Positions 634-26,627 of a stretch of 27,420 nucleotides of DNA are shown piece by piece. The stretch's first letter is position 1; every line of letters begins with the position of its first letter. The notes under the pieces are model-generated. The model made no database searches. It was not told where the DNA came from and was given only the letters and a program-made list of their open reading frames with translations. The translations under genes and the position numbers were made by a program. The stretch comes from an uncultured Rivibacter sp. (GTDB lineage: Bacteria > Pseudomonadota > Gammaproteobacteria > Burkholderiales > Burkholderiaceae), in contig CAMLNA010000049.1 in the NCBI GenBank assembly GCA_946481025.1, positions 1 through 27,420 on the forward strand. The letters run 5' to 3'.

Positions 634-837
634 GACGACACCCCGGCCGGCGGGTACGCCGGCCACCCCTCCGAGAGGGGGCGGGCCTTGCTTGGGGCGG
701 CCCGGCGCGGCGGCCCGGATGACGACACCCCGGCCGGCGGGTACGCCGGCCACCCCTCCGAGAGGGGGCGGGCCTTGCTTGGGGCGGCCCGGCGCGGCGG
801 CCCGGATGACGACACCCCGGCCGGCGGGTACGCCGGC
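634..837. repeat. Tandem repeat array, 87-bp unit, two identical copies plus a 30-bp partial
   Basis: Copies lie at 634-720 and 721-807 and read as identical. A third copy matches from 808 to 837 and then diverges. Each unit begins GACGACACCCCGGCCGGCGG, contains the small inverted repeat CCCCTC-CGA-GAGGGG, and continues with a GCCTTGCTTGGGGCGGCCCG core. Because 87 is a multiple of three and the DNA is very GC-rich, long but spurious reading frames run through it on both strands. The array sits in the 418-bp gene-free stretch between the hypothetical gene ending at 1001 and the DUF3460 start. Apart from this array, the inverted repeat at 883-909, the degenerate copy at 921-991 and a -10-like element, I see nothing in that stretch. 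Confidence 0.9.
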
Positions 838-882
838 GCCCTGCAGGCCGCGCCGGCCGCAAGCGGCCAGCCCTTCACCAGG

Positions 883-909
883 CACCAACAGTCCCCCGGA
901 CTGTTGGTG
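883..909. repeat. Perfect inverted repeat, 12-bp arms, 3-bp loop
   Basis: CACCAACAGTCC, then CCC, then GGACTGTTGGTG. The arms are exactly complementary. It lies between the tandem array and the degenerate repeat copy and would form a stable hairpin in either transcript. It has no T-tract. It resembles short palindromic repeats scattered between genes in GC-rich Burkholderiales, but the family cannot be named from one copy. Confidence 0.8.
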
Positions 910-920
910 TCCGGGTTCAG

Positions 921-991
921 CCCCTCCGAGAGGGGGGCCTTGCTTGGGGCGGCCCGGCGCAGCGGCCCGGGGTCGGCACCCCGGCCGGCGG
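921..991. repeat. Degenerate copy of the 87-bp repeat
   Basis: From CCCCTCCGAGAGGGG onwards this segment follows the unit of the array at 634-837: same small hairpin, same GCCTTGCTTGGGGCGGCCCG core, then GGCACCCCGGCCGGCGG. It has small indels and substitutions, such as loss of the GC before GGCC and GGTC in place of the GATGAC stretch. It is an older copy or a related family member. Confidence 0.7.
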
Positions 992-18614: not shown

Positions 18615-19265
18615 CTACTGGATGATGAAGTTGGCGAAGTGCACGTGGCGCACCGGGTTGTGCACGGCGGGCTTCTTCTTGCGCTTCTTCTTCGGCCTGG
18701 CCTCGGCTTCCTCGTCGCCGCCGGAGGCCTTGGCTGCCGGTTCCTCTTCCTCGTCGATCTCGATGCCCAGCGGGCGCACCGCCTCGCGCTGGATCTCCGC
18801 GGCCAGCTTCTCCTTGCCGGCGCGCTCGAGCAGCTCGGCCGAGGTCTTGTGCGCCAGGATCATCAGCACGCCGTTGCGGATGGCGGGCATGTAGGTCTTC
18901 ATCTGGTCGGCGAACTTCGCGTCCTCGACTTCGAGGGTGATGCTCACCTGCGCATAGCGCTCCTGGTCGCGGTCGGCCAGGTTCACCGTGAAGGGCTCGA
19001 GCGGCAGGAAGGTCGGCACGTGGCCGGGGTCGTGCTTGGCCGACTTCTTCGGCGCCTCCACCTCGGCAGTGTCTTCGTCGTCGCTCTCCTCGGCAGCCGC
19101 GGCGGCGGCCTTCTGCTTGAGCAGGTAGAGGGCGCCGCCGCCGGCCACGGCCAGCAGCAGCACGGCCACGCCGAGCAGCAGCATCAGCTTGCCCGAAAAG
19201 AGCTTCTTCTTGGCAGGCTCGGCGCCTGCGTCGGGGGCGGCGGCTTTGGCAGCAGCAGCGGACAT
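18615..19265 (-). CDS. fliL: Flagellar basal body-associated protein FliL
   Basis: Single-pass inner-membrane protein that rings the stator units and supports torque or stator retention. 216 residues from the ATG at 19265, preceded by AAGGAG. Transmembrane helix LMLLLGVAVLLLAVAGGGAL (about 27-46), then an acidic periplasmic linker (EESDDEDTAEVE), then the stomatin-like FliL domain from FLPLEPFTVNLADRDQERYA through KTYMPAIRNGVLMILAHKTS to the terminal VRHVHFANFIIQ. Unusually, about 33 residues (171-203), first acidic then Lys/Arg-rich (RPKKKRKKKPA), separate the last helix from that terminal strand. It appears to start a second flagellar transcription unit. Confidence 0.93.
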   Translation of the reverse strand: MSAAAAKAAAPDAGAEPAKKKLFSGKLMLLLGVAVLLLAVAGGGALYLLKQKAAAAAAEESDDEDTAEVEAPKKSAKHDPGHVPTFLPLEPFTVNLADRDQERYAQVSITLEVEDAKFADQMKTYMPAIRNGVLMILAHKTSAELLERAGKEKLAAEIQREAVRPLGIEIDEEEEPAAKASGGDEEAEARPKKKRKKKPAVHNPVRHVHFANFIIQ

Positions 19266-19330: not shown

Positions 19331-19388
19331 CTTGGAGTGATTATTCGAGTCCGGCCCTCTCGCTAAGCCTCGATAAAGGGCGGAAAAC
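19331..19388 (-). promoter_or_regulatory. Candidate flagellar promoter upstream of fliL (shared bipartite motif)
   Basis: On the minus strand: GTTTTCCG (19388-19381), 33 bp, CGAATAATC (19347-19339), 4 bp, CAAG (19334-19331). The same three elements occur upstream of fliF with a 32-bp and a 4-bp spacer. AATAAT can serve as the -10, with the distal GTTTTCCG in activator position. Transcription would begin near 19333, about 67 nt before the fliL start. That it is FlhDC-dependent is inference. Confidence 0.55.
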
Positions 19389-19403
19389 AGGCCTTGCTTG
19401 GGA

Positions 19404-19431
19404 GCGGTCCGGGCGCGCCGCCCGGGGCCGC
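19404..19431 (-). terminator. Strong hairpin directly after fliK (terminator-like, no clear U-tract)
   Basis: In the minus-strand transcript the fliK stop is followed at once by a GC-only stem of about 12 bp with one bulged base and a small loop (plus-strand GCGGTCCGGGCG, CGC, CGCCCGGGGCCGC). The flanking GGCCTTGCTTGGG at 19390-19402 matches the core of the 87-bp repeat at 634-837, so this hairpin may itself derive from that repeat family. Downstream only a short TTTT in CTGTTTTCC is seen, so efficient intrinsic termination is uncertain. Confidence 0.45.
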
Positions 19432-20724
19432 TCAGGCGTACAGGTCGAGCATGCCGCGGTGTGCCACCCGGCGGGCAGGCGGCGCCGAAGCAGCGGTGCC
19501 GTCCGGCCCACCGGCTTCGCCCCGGTCGCCGCCGCGCTGCGACGCAGGCGATGCACCGTCGTGCCGGGAGCCGCCGGCCGGGGGGCGGCCGTGTTCGAAC
19601 ACGCCGCCGCCGGCCAGCGTGAGGCCGGCCTCGTGCAGCGCGGCCGCCAGCATCGGCAGGCTCGATTCGATGAGTTCGCGGGTGGCGCCGGCCGCAGCGG
19701 CGAAATCCACCTGGGCCTGGCTGCCGTCCACGGCGATCTGCACCGAGATCGGCCCCATCTCGGCCGGGTTGAGATGCAGCTCGGCCTGTTGCACGCCGTC
19801 CTTCACCAGCACGCTCACCTGCGTGGCCAGCACGTCGGGGAAGTCGGCATCGGTGGCCGGCGTGGGCATGTCGATCGCCGCGGGTGCGGCGGTGTCGGCG
19901 CTGCCGCCGATGCCGGGCGAGGGCGCCGTGAGGTTGTTCACGGCAGCCAGGGCATCGGCGTTCGGCCTGGCTGCCGCCGGGCCGGCGCCCTCGATGCGGG
20001 CCGGTGTGGCGGCGGCCGCCGGGTCGGACGGATTCGCCTGCGCCTCGGCGGGCAGCTCGAAGCGTTCGCCCGCGGCGGAAGCGGCCTCGGCAGCTTCGGC
20101 GCCTGCGGCAGCGGTGCCGCGGCGCAGGCCGGCCGCATGGCGCTGCTGTTGCGAGGCTGCGCCGGACAACGCGTGATCGCCGCCGGCGGCCGCATCCAGC
20201 GTGTCTTGCGCCGATGCACCACCTGCGTCCGGTGCCGGCGGCAGCTGCAGGGCGGCCGGGTTCAGGCTGGCCAGCCATTCGGCCAACGGCGTGACGGCAC
20301 CCTGCTGCTTCTCGTCGGCCGCAGCGCGCGCCTGGTCTTCGCCTTCGACGGCGGGTGCTTCTTCACCGGCCGCCGGCCTGGCGGCCTGGACGCTGCCGCT
20401 GCGCGCGGCCTGCTGGCGGGCCTGCTGGGCACGCTGCTCCGCGGCCCGGTCGTGAACGCGTTCACGTTCGCGGCGCTCGTTGAGGGCGCGCGACTGCTGC
20501 TGCGAAGCAGCGTTGCCCGCGGGCTGCTGCGGCGTCTGCGGCGGCGCGGCCTCGGGCCGGGGCGCCGCAGGTGCCTGCGCCGCTTGCAAACGTGCGCCGC
20601 CCATCAGGCTGGCGAAGTCCATGCCGGCTGCCGGTGCTGCCGCGTTGGCCGCACGCGCTTCGGCAGCCGCCGCGGGGTGGGCTGCGGGCAGCAGGCTGGA
20701 CAGCGCTCGGGTGTTGGTGTTCAT
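19432..20724 (-). CDS. fliK: Flagellar hook-length control protein FliK
   Basis: Secreted molecular ruler that measures the hook and switches export specificity through FlhB. 430 residues from the ATG at 20724. The N-terminal 290 or so residues are low-complexity and rich in Ala, Gln, Pro and Arg, as expected of the unfolded ruler part. The conserved C-terminal Flg_hook domain has TQVSVLVKDGVQQAELHLNP, then AEMGPISVQIAVDGSQAQVD and ELIESSLPMLAAALHEAGLT. The disordered tail ends RGMLDLYA. It lies 8 bp after fliJ and is the last gene before the hairpin and promoter preceding fliL. Confidence 0.93.
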   Translation of the reverse strand: MNTNTRALSSLLPAAHPAAAAEARAANAAAPAAGMDFASLMGGARLQAAQAPAAPRPEAAPPQTPQQPAGNAASQQQSRALNERRERERVHDRAAEQRAQQARQQAARSGSVQAARPAAGEEAPAVEGEDQARAAADEKQQGAVTPLAEWLASLNPAALQLPPAPDAGGASAQDTLDAAAGGDHALSGAASQQQRHAAGLRRGTAAAGAEAAEAASAAGERFELPAEAQANPSDPAAAATPARIEGAGPAAARPNADALAAVNNLTAPSPGIGGSADTAAPAAIDMPTPATDADFPDVLATQVSVLVKDGVQQAELHLNPAEMGPISVQIAVDGSQAQVDFAAAAGATRELIESSLPMLAAALHEAGLTLAGGGVFEHGRPPAGGSRHDGASPASQRGGDRGEAGGPDGTAASAPPARRVAHRGMLDLYA

Positions 20725-20732
20725 CGGTTCGC

Positions 20733-21230
20733 TCAGGCGGGCAGGATGCCGCCGGGCAGCGGCTGGTTGCTCAGGCTGCTCAAGCGCGTCCAGGCGGCGC
20801 GCGAAGCCTGTTCGTCGGTGAGCTTCTGCTCGCGGCGCCCGGCCGCGAGCGCCAGTTCCTGCTGCCGGCGCTCGATCAGCTTGCGCACGGCGGCCGTGCG
20901 CAGCTCCAGCGCGCGCAGCGTGTCGCGTGCGGCGGCCAGCGTGGCGGCGGCCATGGCCACCTGGTGGTGCTGCTGGTCCACCGCGAACTGCAGGCGGCCC
21001 ATGAAGCCCTGGTAGCACTGCACGATTTCCTTCGCGCCGGCCTGGCGGAACTGCGTGTTCCAGCGCTGCTCGTATTCGCTGCGGTAGTGCAGCAGCTGCT
21101 CGGCCTGGCGCTGCGCACCGTCGAGCACCTGCTGTGCGCGCAACTGCTCGGCCAGCGCCTGGTCGCGTTCGCGTTCGGTCTGCTCGAGCACGAGGACGAG
21201 GGCGTGGATCGCTTGGGTACTGCTGCTCAT
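20733..21230 (-). CDS. fliJ: Flagellar export protein FliJ
   Basis: Coiled-coil stalk of the export ATPase complex, linking the FliI hexamer to the FlhA gate. 165 residues from the ATG at 21230 (MSSSTQAIHALVLVLEQTER). The longer open frame upstream is a shadow of fliI. Almost the whole protein is heptad-patterned helix rich in Gln, Arg, Glu and Ala (ERDQALAEQLRAQQVLDGAQ, LIERRQQELALAAGRREQKL), with the family's conserved QCYQGFMGRLQFAVDQQ region in the middle. It sits 23 bp after fliI and 8 bp before fliK. Confidence 0.92.
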   Translation of the reverse strand: MSSSTQAIHALVLVLEQTERERDQALAEQLRAQQVLDGAQRQAEQLLHYRSEYEQRWNTQFRQAGAKEIVQCYQGFMGRLQFAVDQQHHQVAMAAATLAAARDTLRALELRTAAVRKLIERRQQELALAAGRREQKLTDEQASRAAWTRLSSLSNQPLPGGILPA

Positions 21231-21253
21231 GGGAGGTCCTGTCAGGGGCTTGG

Positions 21254-22654
21254 TTAGCGCGCGGCGGCCAGTTGCCGCAGCTGCAGCACGCTGAGGTCCA
21301 GCGGCGCTGGGTCGTGCATGTCCTGCCGCAGCAGGGCGAGCATGTCGTGGTGGCTGCGCACGGCGGTGTCGAGTTCGGCGTCGTGGCCCGGCGCATAGGC
21401 GCCCAGCTGGATCAGGTCGCGCGCCTTGTTGTAGCGCGACCAGAGCTGGCGGAAGCGGCGCGCGGCGTCGAGGTGCTCCGCCGGCGCCACGTTGTGCATG
21501 ACCCGCGAGGCGGAGCGCTCGATGTCGATGGCCGGGTAGTGGCCGCTTTCGGCCAGCTCGCGCGACAGCACGATGTGACCGTCGAGGATGGCGCGTGCCG
21601 CATCGGCGATCGGGTCCTGCTGGTCGTCGCCCTCGGACAGCACGGTGTAGAACGCGGTGATCGAACCGCAGCCGTTCAGGCCGTTGCCCGAACGCTCCAC
21701 CAGCTGCGGCAGCTTGGCAAAACACGAAGGCGGGTAGCCCTTGGTGGCCGGCGGCTCGCCGATGGCCAGCGCGATCTCCCGCTGGGCCATCGCATAACGG
21801 GTGAGCGAGTCCATCAGCAGCAGCACGTGCTGGCCGCGGTCGCGGAAGTGCTCGGCGATCGCGGTGGCGTAGCTCGCGCCCTGCATGCGGGTGAGCGGCG
21901 GGGCATCGGCCGGCGCGGCCACCACCACCGCACGGGCCAGCCCTTCCTCGCCCAGGATGTCCTCGATGAATTCCTTCACTTCGCGGCCGCGTTCGCCGAT
22001 CAGGCCGACCACGATCACGTCGGCGGCGGTGTACTTGGCCATCATGCCCAGCAGCACCGACTTGCCGACGCCGGAACCGGCGAACAGCCCGATGCGCTGG
22101 CCGCGGCCCACGGTGAGCATCGCGTTGATGGCGCGCACGCCGGTGTCCAGCGGCTCGCGCACCGGGTCGCGGTCCATCGCGTTGATGGGGCGGCGCACCA
22201 GCGGTTCGTTGTGCGCGTGCGAGAGGGGGCCGAGCCGGTCCATCGGCTGGCCGTGCGAATCGATCACGCGGCCCAGCAGGCCGTCGCCGATGGGCAGGTG
22301 GCGGGTGCGGTCTTCGCTGCGGCGCCAGGGGTGGCTGGGCTGGCCCAGCACGGGCGCGGCCACCGGCGTGGAGCGCGGCACCACGCGGGCGCCGCTGGCC
22401 AGGCCGTGCACTTCGCCGGTGGGCATGAGGTAGGCGCGGTCGCCCGCGAAGCCCACGACCTCGGCCAGCACCGGCGGCTGGCCTTCCATGCGCACCTCGC
22501 ACACCGAGCCCACCGGCACGCGGATGCCGGCGGCCTCGAGCACCAGGCCGGCCACCCGCACCAGCGTGCCCTGGGTCTCCAGCGGCAGCGGCGAGCTGGC
22601 GAAGTTGTGCAGGTCGTCGAGGTAGCGAAGCCACTTTTCAGCGGGAGCGTTCAT
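21254..22654 (-). CDS. fliI: Flagellum-specific ATP synthase FliI (export ATPase)
   Basis: Hexameric ATPase that powers unloading of substrates at the flagellar type III export gate, homologous to the F1 beta subunit. 466 residues. The N-terminal beta-barrel is followed by the ATPase core: Walker A GLFAGSGVGKS (about 189-199), the segment GLIGERGREVKEFIEDILGE, Walker B LLLMDSLTRYAMAQRE (about 278-293) and the family signature GEPPATKGYPPSCFAKLPQL. The C-terminal helical domain ends in a Leu/Arg-rich helix. Its start overlaps the fliH stop by 4 bp (ATGA), a typical coupled junction for the two partner proteins. Confidence 0.98.
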   Translation of the reverse strand: MNAPAEKWLRYLDDLHNFASSPLPLETQGTLVRVAGLVLEAAGIRVPVGSVCEVRMEGQPPVLAEVVGFAGDRAYLMPTGEVHGLASGARVVPRSTPVAAPVLGQPSHPWRRSEDRTRHLPIGDGLLGRVIDSHGQPMDRLGPLSHAHNEPLVRRPINAMDRDPVREPLDTGVRAINAMLTVGRGQRIGLFAGSGVGKSVLLGMMAKYTAADVIVVGLIGERGREVKEFIEDILGEEGLARAVVVAAPADAPPLTRMQGASYATAIAEHFRDRGQHVLLLMDSLTRYAMAQREIALAIGEPPATKGYPPSCFAKLPQLVERSGNGLNGCGSITAFYTVLSEGDDQQDPIADAARAILDGHIVLSRELAESGHYPAIDIERSASRVMHNVAPAEHLDAARRFRQLWSRYNKARDLIQLGAYAPGHDAELDTAVRSHHDMLALLRQDMHDPAPLDLSVLQLRQLAAAR

Positions 22655-23403
22655 TCATCGTCTCCGGCCGGGTTCATGTCGTCGGAGCCGGTCCATTCCG
22701 AATCGCGGCCCATCGCCCCGGCTGCACGCTGCCAGCGGGCTTCCACCGTGGCGTCGATCACGCCGATGTCCGATTCGACGATGCAGCCGCCGCGGGTGAT
22801 CTGCGCGTCGGGCACCAGCCGCGCGCCGCGCGACTCGATCAGCTCGTGCACGCCCTGCACGACCAGGGCGTGGTCGTCAGGGTGCACCCGCAGGGTGATG
22901 TGCCTGGCCGACATCAGCAGCGCGGTGAGCGCTTCCTGGGCCACGTCCACGACGAGTTGCGGGCGCTGCAAGAGTTCGCTGCGCACCACCTGGCGCGCCA
23001 GCGACAGCGCCACGCCGGCCAGGCGCTGCGCGAGGTTGTTCTCGAGCCCGCCGAGCTGCTGCTGGAAGGCCGAGGCGATGTGGGCCACCTGGGCCGTCAC
23101 CTGCGCCGCATAGCTCTGCTTGAAACCTTCGAGGGCGACGAGGCCGTCGCGGTAGCCGTCCTGGTAGCCGGCCTGGCGGGCGGCATGCACCTGGGCCGCG
23201 ATCTCCTCGGCGGTGGGCGGCACCGGCTCGGCCTCGGCATGGGCCGCGGCTGCGGCGCCTTCGCTGCCCGGCAGCACACCGGGGTTCCAGGCCGCGAAGG
23301 TGTGCAGTTCCTCGCGCGGGATGAAGCGCGCGTAGCTCGCCTTCGGGTCCGCGTTGGGCGGCGGCACCTGGCGGGGGCCCTTTTTAGAGGAACTGGTCAT
23401 CAC
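22651..23403 (-). CDS. fliH: Flagellar assembly protein FliH
   Basis: Negative regulator and stator of the FliI ATPase, analogous to the F-type b and delta subunits, and its bridge to FliN. 250 residues from the first of two consecutive ATGs at 23403, inside the end of fliG (about 20-bp overlap). The N-terminus contains YARFIPREELHTFAAWNPG. A GxxxG-like helix, ARQAGYQDGYRDGLVALEGF, is typical of FliH, followed by a long helix and the C-terminal FliI-binding domain (LARQVVRSELLQRPQLVVDV, then LRVHPDDHALV, and ITRGGCIVESDIGVIDATVE). Confidence 0.96.
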   Translation of the reverse strand: MMTSSSKKGPRQVPPPNADPKASYARFIPREELHTFAAWNPGVLPGSEGAAAAAHAEAEPVPPTAEEIAAQVHAARQAGYQDGYRDGLVALEGFKQSYAAQVTAQVAHIASAFQQQLGGLENNLAQRLAGVALSLARQVVRSELLQRPQLVVDVAQEALTALLMSARHITLRVHPDDHALVVQGVHELIESRGARLVPDAQITRGGCIVESDIGVIDATVEARWQRAAGAMGRDSEWTGSDDMNPAGDDE

Positions 23404-24379
23404 CGCCGCCTCCCAGCACGATCTGTCCTTCGTCGGCCAGTCGGCGGACGATCTTCAGCATTTCCTTCTGCTCGGCCTCCACCTCGGACACGCGCACCGG
23501 GCCGCGCGACTCGAGGTCCTCGCGCAGCGTTTCGGCGGCGCGGGTGGACATGTTGCGGAAGATCTTCTCGCGCAGCTCGGGCGTGGCTCCCTTGAGCGCG
23601 ATGATGAGCGACTCGCTCTGCACTTCCTTCAGCAGCGACTGGATGCCGCGGTCGTCGACCTTGTTCAGGTCGTCGAACACGAACATGTTGTCCATGATCT
23701 TCTGGGCCAGCTCGTTGTCCATCTCGCGCACGTAGTCGAGGATGGAGGTCTCGATGCTGCTGCCCATCAGGTTGATGATCTCGGCCGCCGGCTTCACGCC
23801 GCCCAGCGAAGCCTTCTTCAGCTTGTCGCCGCCGGCCAGCACCTTGCTCATCACCTCGTTCAGGTCCTTCAGCGCCGAAGGCTGGATGCCGTCCAGCGTG
23901 GCGATGCGCACCATCACCTCGTTGCGCTGGCGGTCGGTGAAGTGCTTGAGCACGTCCGAACTCTGGTCGTAGTCCAGGTGCACCAGGATGGCGGCGACGA
24001 TCTGCGGGTGCTCGTTGCGCAGCAGCTCGGCCACCGAGCCCGGGTCCATCCACTTGAGGCTTTCGATGCCGGTGACGTCGCTGCCCTGCAGGATCCGGTC
24101 GATCAGCAGGTTGGCCTTGTCGTCGCCGAGCGCGCGGCGCAGCACCTGCTTCACGTATTCGTCGGTGTCGGTCACCAGCATGCTCTGCTCCGCGGCGTCC
24201 GAAGAGAAGCGCGTGAGCACCTGGTCCACGCGCTCGCGCGGCACGGTCTTCAGCTTGGCGATCGTCTCGCCCAGGCGCTGCACTTCCTTCGGGGCGAGAT
24301 GCTTGAATACCTCGGCGGCGTCTTCCTCGCCGAGCGACATCAGCAGGATCGCGGAGTCTTCGAGTCCCTGGTCGTCCAT
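23384..24379 (-). CDS. fliG: Flagellar motor switch protein FliG
   Basis: C-ring rotor subunit that contacts MotA and generates torque. 331 residues, the normal length. The N-terminal FliF-binding part starts MDDQGLEDSAILLMSLGEED. The middle armadillo domain contains the EHPQ motif (RNEHPQIVAAILVHLDYDQS), and the C-terminal domain has the MFVFDDLNKVDDRGIQSLLK hinge and the charged torque helix region (GATPELREKIFRNMSTRAAE, then TLREDLESRGPVRVSEVE). The alternating charged residues expected in that helix (K, R, E, D) are present. The start is 31 bp from the fliF stop, and its end overlaps fliH. Confidence 0.98.
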   Translation of the reverse strand: MDDQGLEDSAILLMSLGEEDAAEVFKHLAPKEVQRLGETIAKLKTVPRERVDQVLTRFSSDAAEQSMLVTDTDEYVKQVLRRALGDDKANLLIDRILQGSDVTGIESLKWMDPGSVAELLRNEHPQIVAAILVHLDYDQSSDVLKHFTDRQRNEVMVRIATLDGIQPSALKDLNEVMSKVLAGGDKLKKASLGGVKPAAEIINLMGSSIETSILDYVREMDNELAQKIMDNMFVFDDLNKVDDRGIQSLLKEVQSESLIIALKGATPELREKIFRNMSTRAAETLREDLESRGPVRVSEVEAEQKEMLKIVRRLADEGQIVLGGGGDDQFL

Positions 24380-24410
24380 GTTCTTGGTTCCTGTGAGCCG
24401 CTTGCCGGGC

Positions 24411-26111
24411 TCAGGCTTCCTTGCTCACCCAGGTGCGCACGATGGCGGCCACCGCACCCGGGTTCTCTTTCGCGAAGGAACGAGCGTCCTCCAGGCGGCG
24501 GTCCGACTGCGGCGCTTCCAGCGCGGGCAGGACCTGCGGGTCGTTGCCCAGCGTCTGCGCGTCGTCGATCACCGCATCGAGCATCGGCGCAGGGCGCGAG
24601 CTTTCCACCGCCTTGAGGGCCGGCCGGATGGCGCCGAACACCACGATCAGCGCCAGCAGCGTCAGCGCGCCGGGAATGGCCATGGTGCGCAGCAGGTCGA
24701 TCGTCTCGGGCTGCTTCCACAGCGGCACATCGACGGGCGTGACCTTCTCGACCTTGAACGGCGCGTTGATCACCTTGACCGAGTCGCCGCGATCCTGGCT
24801 GAAGCCGATGGTCTCGCGCACCAGCGAGGTGAGCTTGTCGAGTTCCTCGGCCGACAGCGGCACGGTGGTCGTCTTGCCCTTGGCGTCGGTGTTGGTGCGG
24901 TGGTTCACCACCACCGCGGCATTCAGGCGCTTCACCGTGCCGGTGGCGTTGCGCGTCACGCGCACGGTCTTGTCGACTTCGTAGTTGGTCACCGAGTCCG
25001 CGCGGGACGGGCCGGCGGCCGCGGCGTTGCCGCCTTGCGCCGCCTGCAGCGGCTGGGCCGCGCCGTTGATGGGGGCGGTGGCCGGCACCGGCGGCTGGTT
25101 CGAGGCCGCGCCGGGCACGCCGCTGGGCTGTGCATTGGCGCCGCCGGTGGAGCTGGAGGTCTGCTGGCTGCGCACCGTGGCCTGGTCGGCGGCGGAGCCC
25201 TGGTTCGGCTTGAACTCCTCGGAGGTTGACTCGGTCTGCGAGAAGTCCACCTCGGCGGTGACCTGGGCCCGCAGGTTGTCGCGGCCGACCACCGGCTCCA
25301 GGATGTCGAGGATGCGCTTGGTGTGCATCGCCTCGATCTGGTTCACGTACTGCAGCTGCTGGGCGTCGAGCCCGCCGTTGGCGGCTGCATCGGTCGGGCC
25401 GGAAATCAGCGCGCCGGTCTGGTCGAGCACGCTCACCGCCTTGGGGTTGAGCTCGGGCACGCTCGAAGACACCAGGTGCACGATGCCGGCCACCTGCGCG
25501 CGGTCCAGCGTGCGGCCCGGGTGCAGCGTGAGCATCACCGAGGCGCTGGGCTTCTGCTGCTCGCGAAAGAAGCCGTTCTGGTTGGGCAGGGCCAGGTGCA
25601 CGCGGGCCGACTGCACGGCGGCCAGCGCCATGATCGAGCGGGTGAGCTCGCCTTCGAGGCCGCGCTGGAAGGTGAGGCGTTCCTGGAACTGCGTGATGCC
25701 GAAGCGGGCGTTGTCCATCAGCTCGAAGCCGGTGACCGAGCCCTTGGGCAGGCCGGCCGAGGCGAGCTTCAGGCGCACGTCGTGCACCTTGTCGGCGGGC
25801 ACCAGGATGGCCGCGCCGCCGTCGGCGTGCTTGTAGGGCACGTTCATCTGCGACAGCTGCGCGAGGATGGCGCCGCCGTCCTTGTCGGACAGGTTGGCGT
25901 ACAGCACCTTGTAGTCACCCTGGCTGGACATCATGGCCATGGCCGCCACGATGGCGACCAGTGCCGCGAGGCCCGCGCCCAGCAGGAACTTGCGCTTGGC
26001 CGGCAGGGCCATCAGGCGTTCGCCGAAGCCGGGGTTCGCATTCACGACGGGGCGTGCCGCGGCGGCCGGGGCCATGGCGGCGGGGATCGGTTGGGCGACG
26101 ACGGTGTCCAT
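24411..26111 (-). CDS. fliF: Flagellar M-ring protein FliF
   Basis: Forms the MS ring in the inner membrane on which the C ring and rod are built. 566 residues. After an Ala/Pro-rich N-terminus, TM1 is FLLGAGLAALVAIVAAMAMM, followed by the two ring-building domains (YKVLYANLSDKDGGAILAQL, then ARVHLALPNQNGFFREQQKP and ASVMLTLHPGRTLDRAQVAG). A low-complexity periplasmic stretch rich in Gln, Gly, Pro and Ala precedes TM2 (ALTLLALIVVFGAIRPAL). The cytoplasmic C-terminal peptide, rich in Ala and Glu and ending IVRTWVSKEA, docks FliG. It is the first gene of the fliF-K unit and divergent from fliE. Confidence 0.98.
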   Translation of the reverse strand: MDTVVAQPIPAAMAPAAAARPVVNANPGFGERLMALPAKRKFLLGAGLAALVAIVAAMAMMSSQGDYKVLYANLSDKDGGAILAQLSQMNVPYKHADGGAAILVPADKVHDVRLKLASAGLPKGSVTGFELMDNARFGITQFQERLTFQRGLEGELTRSIMALAAVQSARVHLALPNQNGFFREQQKPSASVMLTLHPGRTLDRAQVAGIVHLVSSSVPELNPKAVSVLDQTGALISGPTDAAANGGLDAQQLQYVNQIEAMHTKRILDILEPVVGRDNLRAQVTAEVDFSQTESTSEEFKPNQGSAADQATVRSQQTSSSTGGANAQPSGVPGAASNQPPVPATAPINGAAQPLQAAQGGNAAAAGPSRADSVTNYEVDKTVRVTRNATGTVKRLNAAVVVNHRTNTDAKGKTTTVPLSAEELDKLTSLVRETIGFSQDRGDSVKVINAPFKVEKVTPVDVPLWKQPETIDLLRTMAIPGALTLLALIVVFGAIRPALKAVESSRPAPMLDAVIDDAQTLGNDPQVLPALEAPQSDRRLEDARSFAKENPGAVAAIVRTWVSKEA

Positions 26112-26159
26112 GTTCGACTTGTTCCCTCAATGCGCGCGGCTCGGCACGAGCCTGCACAA

Positions 26160-26216
26160 CTTGAGCGGATTATTCGGACACGCTCCGAAACAAATGCCGC
26201 GAACAGCCCGGAAAAC
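26160..26216 (-). promoter_or_regulatory. Candidate flagellar promoter upstream of fliF (shared bipartite motif)
   Basis: On the minus strand: GTTTTCCG (26216-26209), 32 bp, CGAATAATC (26176-26168), 4 bp, CAAG (26163-26160), matching the arrangement before fliL. Transcription would begin near 26162, about 50 nt before the fliF start. Because GTTTTCCG lies centrally between fliF and fliE, one bound activator could serve both directions, as FlhDC does in enterics. I found no equally good -10 facing fliE; TAGCAT at 26255-26260 is the best guess. Confidence 0.55.
26173..26189. promoter_or_regulatory. Inverted repeat TTCGGA-N5-TCCGAA in the fliE/fliF intergenic region
   Basis: A perfect 6-bp inverted repeat with a 5-bp spacer (CACGC). 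One arm overlaps the CGAATAATC element of the fliF promoter. It is placed like a repressor or second activator operator. This part is not shared with the fliL promoter, so it would be specific to the fliE/fliF region. Confidence 0.45.
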
Positions 26217-26300
26217 GACGCCCAGTTCGCCCCATCGGTTTGACGGCGGGCCGGTAGCATCCGTGCCATCCCAATCTGCCGGGACCACAGGTACACCGCC

Positions 26301-26627
26301 ATGGATGTGAGACTCAAACCCTTCGACTTCGCGCAAGCGGCCGCCCGTGCGGGCATGCCGCAGGTGGCGAAAGCCGTGAAGGAAAGCACACAGGCGGCCC
26401 AGGCGACCGGCTTCCAGCAGAGCTTCGCGCAGGCGCTGCGCTCGGTGAGCGAGGCCCAGAACGAAGCCACCCGCATGCAGCGCGAGGTTCAGCTCGACAA
26501 CCCGACCGTGAGCCTGGAAGAGACCATGGTCGCGATGCAGAAGGCACAGATCGGCTTCCAGTCGGCCCTGCAGGTGAGGAACCGGATGGTGCAGGCCTAC
26601 AGTGAAATCATGAACATGCAGGTGTGA
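26301..26627 (+). CDS. fliE: Flagellar hook-basal body complex protein FliE
   Basis: Rod/MS-ring junction protein, the first substrate exported and the adaptor on which the rod is built. 108 residues, the usual length. The C-terminal half is well conserved: DNPTVSLEETMVAMQKAQIG, then FQSALQVRNRMVQAYSEIMN, ending MQV. The N-terminal half is Ala/Gln-rich and helical. The ATG at 26301 has only a weak Shine-Dalgarno (ACAGG, 8 nt upstream). It is divergent from fliF across 189 bp and is followed after 46 bp by the antitoxin gene. Confidence 0.96.
   Translation: MDVRLKPFDFAQAAARAGMPQVAKAVKESTQAAQATGFQQSFAQALRSVSEAQNEATRMQREVQLDNPTVSLEETMVAMQKAQIGFQSALQVRNRMVQAYSEIMNMQV

Follow-up and report, generated by a model that had tools for sequence, protein, structure and literature searches.

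In this study we analysed a window of 27,420 nucleotides from an uncultured Rivibacter sp. (contig CAMLNA010000049.1), in which two flagellar units, headed by fliF and fliL, are preceded by one and the same element: an inverted repeat followed, at a nearly constant distance, by a -10 block. Judged from the sequence, the two sites are highly probably FlhDC-activated class II flagellar promoters of the sigma-70 type. The element is conserved in relatives, matches the FlhDC box of Escherichia coli and recurs before other flagellar operons; its motif, its geometry, its regulon and its co-occurrence with flhDC point to FlhDC as the likely regulator. The flhDC genes are found in the nearest genome compared (G001; 6.2 Mb, sharing 41% of the 31-letter words sampled from the window) and are presumably present in the window's own genome. 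The closest named relatives of the window's FliI belong to the Burkholderiales, e.g. Rhizobacter, Albitalea, Roseateles and Rubrivivax.

The initial annotation had drawn attention to an exact, spaced repeat before the two genes, and this repeat is indeed there. On the minus strand, fliF is preceded by GTTTTCCG (26216-26209), 32 bp, CGAATAATC (26176-26168), 4 bp and CAAG (26163-26160); fliL is preceded by GTTTTCCG (19388-19381), 33 bp, CGAATAATC (19347-19339), 4 bp and CAAG (19334-19331). The 8-mer and the 9-mer stand as a pair at two places in the window; 100 dinucleotide shuffles gave no such pair. The same pattern is also found exactly twice in G001, at the fliF and fliL promoters as in the window. 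When the window's upstream regions were compared with those of relatives by BLAST, G001 was the sole match for fliF among 60 relatives; the fliL region matched G001 as well, plus short pieces in G001 and in three other genomes.

The upstream regions of fliE, fliF and fliL were taken from the best 80 loci around FliI relatives, and a three-block model (left arm, right arm and -10 block) was fitted to them. The training set of the first model included the window and the genomes lacking FlhC; this model was used for the E. coli scores and for the first scores of the held-out flgB and flhB promoters. A window-free model was trained without the window and without the five FlhC-less genomes (121 regions, 110 used). 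Both had also taken in seven wrong fliF regions from truncated contigs, three of which repeated the fliL region (loci L002, L011, L025, L036, L039, L050 and L077); a clean model was retrained on the 115 correct regions only and the main tests were repeated with it. The conservation figures given below refer to 114 sites with scores of 20 or more (65 for fliF and 49 for fliL), with the window included and with the FlhC-less genomes and the fliF starts absent from the contigs left out; for genomes with FlhC these figures are in-sample.

Both copies of the repeat turned out to sit inside a larger element of the form gcGAAtaGGg-N12-gcCTTTTCccgcCtTTgt-14/15 bp-CgAATAATcg, the last block being the -10, and this single three-block element was found conserved at the two promoters in the relatives, where the initial annotation had suggested looking. 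Its conserved parts are the arms that surround the 8-mer (GAAtaG on one side, CTTTTC..gcCtTT on the other) and an A/T step at the centre of the spacer. The inner spacer is of 12 bp in 79 of the 114 sites. The -10 block lies 14 bp beyond the box in 52 sites, 15 bp in 53 and 16 bp in 9, i.e. at 14-15 bp in 105 of 114, and the reading of AATAAT as a -10 is borne out by this conservation. Among the fliF sites with a 12-bp spacer (58 of 65), positions 6 and 7 are occupied by A or T, in runs of either base, in 91% and 95%; among the corresponding fliL sites (21 of 49), the values are 95% and 67%. Easier bending by FlhDC may be a plausible reason for this central step.

With both strands of the window scanned, the window-free model returned two sites scoring at least 18, those of fliF (37.4) and fliL (33.0), and the clean model the same sole two (37.1 and 33.2). 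With the window-free model, 19 of 20 shuffled windows were devoid of any site at that level, and the remaining one had a single site at 23.0. Of the sites scoring at least 25 with the same model over the 75 relatives' loci (1.06 Mb), 93 precede fliF or fliL, and 4 are located elsewhere.

The best site in the window is the FlhDC-box-like inverted repeat that precedes fliF and is common to fliE (26191..26230, minus strand). It is made of GCGAACTGGG (26230-26221), the spacer cgtcGTTTTCCG (26220-26209) and GGCTGTTCGCGGCATTTG (26208-26191); the 8-mer (26209..26216) is part of the spacer, in the middle of which lies the A/T step. The -10 hexamer AATAAT (26169..26174) lacks a matching -35 within 14-19 bp (best 2/6). 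Relative to the inferred start, the box extends from about -68 to -29 and is centred near -52, in keeping with the activator site around -50 put forward in the initial annotation. It precedes fliF (24411..26111, minus strand; TIGR00206, 407 bits), the first gene of a unit continuing to fliG, fliH, fliI and fliK; in the profile search FliG and FliI were above the cut-offs, FliH and FliK below. The second and last site scoring at least 18 in the window is the similar element before fliL (19362..19401, minus strand), with CCAAGCAAGG (19401-19392) as a weak left arm, the spacer cctGTTTTCCGc (19391-19380), which holds the 8-mer (19381..19388) one base off the fliF register, and CCTTTATCGAGGCTTAGC (19379-19362). 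Its AATAAT hexamer (19340..19345) has a weak -35 (best 3/6). The gene downstream, fliL (18615..19265, minus strand; PF03748, 78.3 bits), is the first of a unit with fliM, fliO and fliP, of which FliM and FliP were above the cut-offs and FliO below.

According to the available passages of PMC9962212, the E. coli FlhDC consensus is AAYGSSNNAAATAGCG-N10-12-CGCTATTTNNSSCRTT. Aligned by eye with it, our right block, gcCTTTTCccgcCtTT, corresponds position for position to the right arm and our left block to the consensus core AAATAGCG, with an equal range of spacers. The resemblance covers the inverted arms with AATA/TATT cores, the 10-12 bp spacer, the SSCRTT outer part, the poor -35 and the target operons, those of fliE, fliF, fliL, flgA, flgB and flhB being common to both (as far as these passages go). 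Counting matches over the 28 informative positions of the consensus, the fliF box had 20, a value reached by 4 of 500 shuffles. The differences from E. coli are that the arms are shifted here to GAAtaG and CTTTTC, that the -10 of fliF and fliL (CGAATAATC) is better and that, in G001, flhA, flhF, a FlgG-like gene and flgI are preceded by sites as well.

The first model, though trained on betaproteobacteria, recovered several of the E. coli K-12 promoters: fliF (32.3), fliL (31.2), fliA (25.3) and flgA (21.8), none of which was equalled by any of its 100 shuffles, with spacers of 11-12 bp and -10 distances of 14-15 bp. These belong to a group of eight promoters whose status as FlhDC targets is partly common knowledge and partly drawn from the passages of PMC9962212. 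Five of six control promoters (fliC, flgM, yedE, dcyD, murJ and yecT) scored at most 15.9. The E. coli consensus alone does not suffice to detect sites like that of fliL; the present work provides an FlhDC operator model usable for GC-rich Burkholderiales, with which class II flagellar promoters can be called from sequence.

FlhC was looked for in 50 genomes, i.e. G001 and the genomes of 49 of the 80 loci, and was found in 43 of them. Where it is present, the element scored at least 20 before fliF in 41 of 42 cases and before fliL in 29 of 33; these counts are in-sample, fliF starts absent from the contigs being left out. Loci outside the FlhC search gave 20/20 for fliF and 13/17 for fliL. By contrast, five genomes lacking FlhC (Azonexus, Accumulibacter and Propionivibrio), kept out of training, gave 0/5 for both promoters. 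The flgB and flhB promoters, which are outside the training set, were scored in 30 of the 50 genomes: with the first model, 20/25 and 22/25 were positive in the presence of FlhC, versus 0/5 and 0/5 in its absence, and with the clean model 19/25 and 21/25 versus, again, 0/5 and 0/5.

In G001, flhD and flhC are adjacent genes flanked by fliC and motA. The 75.5 kb of flagellar stretches of this genome contain 8 sites scoring at least 22, each preceding a flagellar gene: fliF, fliL, flgB, a FlgG-like rod gene, flgI, flhB, flhA and flhF. The window-free model found no site at 18 or above (highest 17.7) in the 273 kb of other G001 DNA; the neighbourhood of flhDC, fliC and motA and the C162 stretch were likewise devoid of sites. 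The genome scan proposed in the initial annotation, made with the exact string, finds only the fliF and fliL promoters in G001, because the spacers of the six other sites differ and their -10s (AAGAAT or AACAAT, for example) are weaker. In addition to its main flagellar cluster, G001 carries further FlhB-like and FlgB-like genes (C162, C146 and C126), as might belong to a second flagellar system or to a type III secretion system.

Three other explanations of the likeness have to be weighed. One is that proposed at the outset, namely that GTTTTCCG is itself the recognition motif of FlhDC or of another flagellar regulator, placed 32-33 bp from the -10. It draws on the exact presence of the 8-mer at both promoters in the window as in G001, and we regard it as very improbable. 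The 8-mer or its complement is found within the spacer at 5 of the 114 sites, the window's two among them. It occupies spacer positions 5-12 at fliF and 4-11 at fliL, so that the copies are one base out of register relative to the box, which is why the spacings are of 32 and 33 bp. The six other flagellar sites of G001 keep the arms, not this spacer. An exact 8-mer common to both promoters (register shift of at most 1, upstream of the -10) occurs in 3 of the 44 genomes, window included in both figures, that had both promoters scored. The common GTTTTCCG looks like a lineage-specific coincidence inside a real element: a striking exact repeat can be a spacer rather than a recognition sequence. 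Of the earlier proposal of an FlhDC binding motif, FlhDC is retained as the likely regulator and the 8-mer is not retained as what it binds. CAAG drops out of the element too, since it closely follows the -10 at 4 of the 114 sites, two of them the window's own.

Even less probable, in our opinion, is a likeness due to recent duplication, to a common mobile repeat or to chance. A dispersed repeat does end inside the fliL box (window 19424-19390, minus strand), but it stops before GTTTTCCG and covers the fliL left arm only. The absence of the motif pair from all the shuffles speaks against chance, and the arms and spacing are conserved at each promoter across genera. Moreover, training on either promoter in relatives is enough to predict the element of the other. 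The fliF-trained model (64 sites) gave at least 20 in 37 of 51 fliL regions, 49 of 51 being above all 30 of their shuffles; the fliL-trained model (51 sites) gave at least 20 in 53 of 64 fliF regions, with 62 of 64 above all 30 shuffles. Applied to the window, they scored fliL at 31.5 and fliF at 28.6, respectively, and the FlhC-less genomes gave 0/5 both ways. There remains the possibility, improbable though somewhat less so than the other two, of promoters belonging to another flagellar system, i.e. dependent on sigma-28 (FliA) or on sigma-54 with a FleQ-type activator. The sigma-28 consensus is TAAAGTTT-N11-GCCGATAA, and its -10, GCCGATAA, resembles the CCGATAAT of some relatives; the sigma-54 consensus is TGGCACG-N4-TTGCW. 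The best sigma-28 matches were 11/16 (fliF) and 7/16 (fliL), within the range of shuffles (maxima 12 and 10), and the best sigma-54 matches 9/12 and 7/12, again within shuffles (maxima 11 and 10); none was at the -10, and both candidates were discarded. Other regulators do exist in the order, since FliF is kept in 20 of 33 of its genomes that lack a full-length FlhC; this sample, assembled as a check on kinship, comprised 20 of the 152 genomes without a match and 13 with weak or partial ones. Against such a system stand the tracking of FlhC by the element and its recovery at E. coli FlhDC promoters.

Several observations weigh against activation by FlhDC. The weakest point is the fliL site: its left arm amounts to only 3.8 bits and overlaps the dispersed repeat, and its best match to the strict E. 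coli consensus, 16/28, is in another register and is reached by 190 of 500 shuffles. At this site the right arm and the strong -10 may do most of the work. The -10s are good here, unlike the poor ones that the available passages of PMC4183435 describe, along with a poor -35, for E. coli FlhDC promoters. In E. coli, flgB (10.5), flhB (12.1), fliE (17.9) and fliD (19.1) were all below 20, so that 4 of 8 targets pass, and one control of the six, dcyD, passes as well (23.9, not equalled by any of 100 shuffles), carried by its -10. The boxes given for fliE/fliF and fliL in the passages of PMC9962212 differ from the K-12 sites chosen by the model. The clean model also yields one site, at 21.0, in the non-flagellar DNA of G001.

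The co-occurrence with FlhC has its own defects. In genomes with FlhC, the threshold of 20 was missed by 1/42 fliF, 4/33 fliL, 5/25 flgB and 3/25 flhB regions; the fliF miss (L052) lies at an extraction edge and its site scores 34.2 with the window-free model. Two metagenome-assembled genomes without detected FlhC (L013 and L023) carry the box, before fliF in 2/2 and before fliL in 1/1. The five FlhC-less genomes are all of one group, so that kinship confounds the contrast, and one of their fliF regions, below 20, beat its 50 shuffles, which was not the case with the clean model. Lastly, 2 of 21 fliF loci from the genomes without full-length FlhC score at least 25 (G109 and G112). A search of these two genomes for FlhD found none. 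Their fliF boxes (L176 and L177) might be relics, might be due to a gap in the assembly or might answer to another regulator; both FlhD and FlhC are present in two congeners of G109, and therefore G109 may represent a recent loss or an assembly gap.

The following scheme is proposed for the activation by FlhDC. FlhD4C2 would bind the inverted repeat, with arms GAAtaG and CTTTTCccgcCtTT, a 12-bp spacer (GTTTTCCG being part of it in the window) and an A/T step in mid-spacer, over about -74 to -31, and would recruit RNA polymerase to the good -10 (CGAATAATC) without a real -35. The fliF box, located between the divergent fliF and fliE genes, would serve both, via -10s at mirror-image distances. 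The fliE gene (26301..26627, plus strand; TIGR00205, 78.4 bits) has a putative -10, TAGCAT (26255..26260, plus strand), which mirrors the placing of the fliF -10 about the box (offset 16). Of the 65 fliF sites, 60 could be read on the fliE side: a TANNNT hexamer is found at offset 16-17 beyond the mirrored block in 51 of them, and the rest of the 0-31 range yields 3 occurrences altogether. Offset 16-17 is also the usual distance of the fliF -10. On the flgA side of the flgB box, 18 of the 20 sites scoring at least 18 (20 of 25 sites) have a mirrored -10, and offset 17 is occupied by a hexamer at both fliE (TAGGCT) and flgB (TAAGCT) of E. coli (by eye). A single fliF/fliE box appears to serve two polymerases symmetrically. 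We lean slightly towards the broader idea that FlhDC is a two-fold symmetric organiser of divergent promoters: at the fliE/fliF and flgA/flgB boxes a -10 would stand 16-17 bp beyond each arm, placing two polymerases in mirror image, a geometry kept from the Burkholderiales to E. coli while arm sequence and spacer drifted. The mirror-placed -10s offer a testable claim on one activator complex serving two divergent promoters.

Control of flagella by FlhDC is already known in this order, and the box is most likely ordinary biology in a new lineage: in Burkholderia glumae, which belongs to the Burkholderiales as the window does, FlhDC activates flagellar genes, flhF included (PMC3885665, the available passages of which give no operator sequence). 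Among the matches listed in the open-licence literature, no FlhDC operator for betaproteobacteria was found. Regulators of the FlhDC family are also described for mobile elements, AcaCD/SetCD (PMC4605294) and BisDC (PMC7423338); from the passages available, these are distant FlhC-like activators, but they act on transfer or integration genes. G001 has a second, distant FlhC-like open reading frame (C176:2502-2984; L218 1380-2435, minus strand; PF05280, 38.8 bits, 351 amino acids), and several more genomes of the order gave weak hits of this kind. This protein may be the regulator of an integrative element, like BisDC.

The dispersed GC-rich intergenic repeat whose end forms the fliL left arm, CCAAGCAAGG, terminates in CCGC(T)CCCAAGCAAGGCC. 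A search of the window for the repeat pattern, with at most 2 mismatches, found the fliL copy alone. Further copies, shorter by one base and with a likeness of about 86%, are located at 975-936, 805-771 and 718-684 (minus strand), and the repeat is partly tandem, with a period of about 87 bp, in window 650-980. Copies were also seen in G001 (C67, C99, C139, C149 and C162) and in G056 (C19), the two genomes, among 40 relatives, that contain the exact 17-mer of the repeat.

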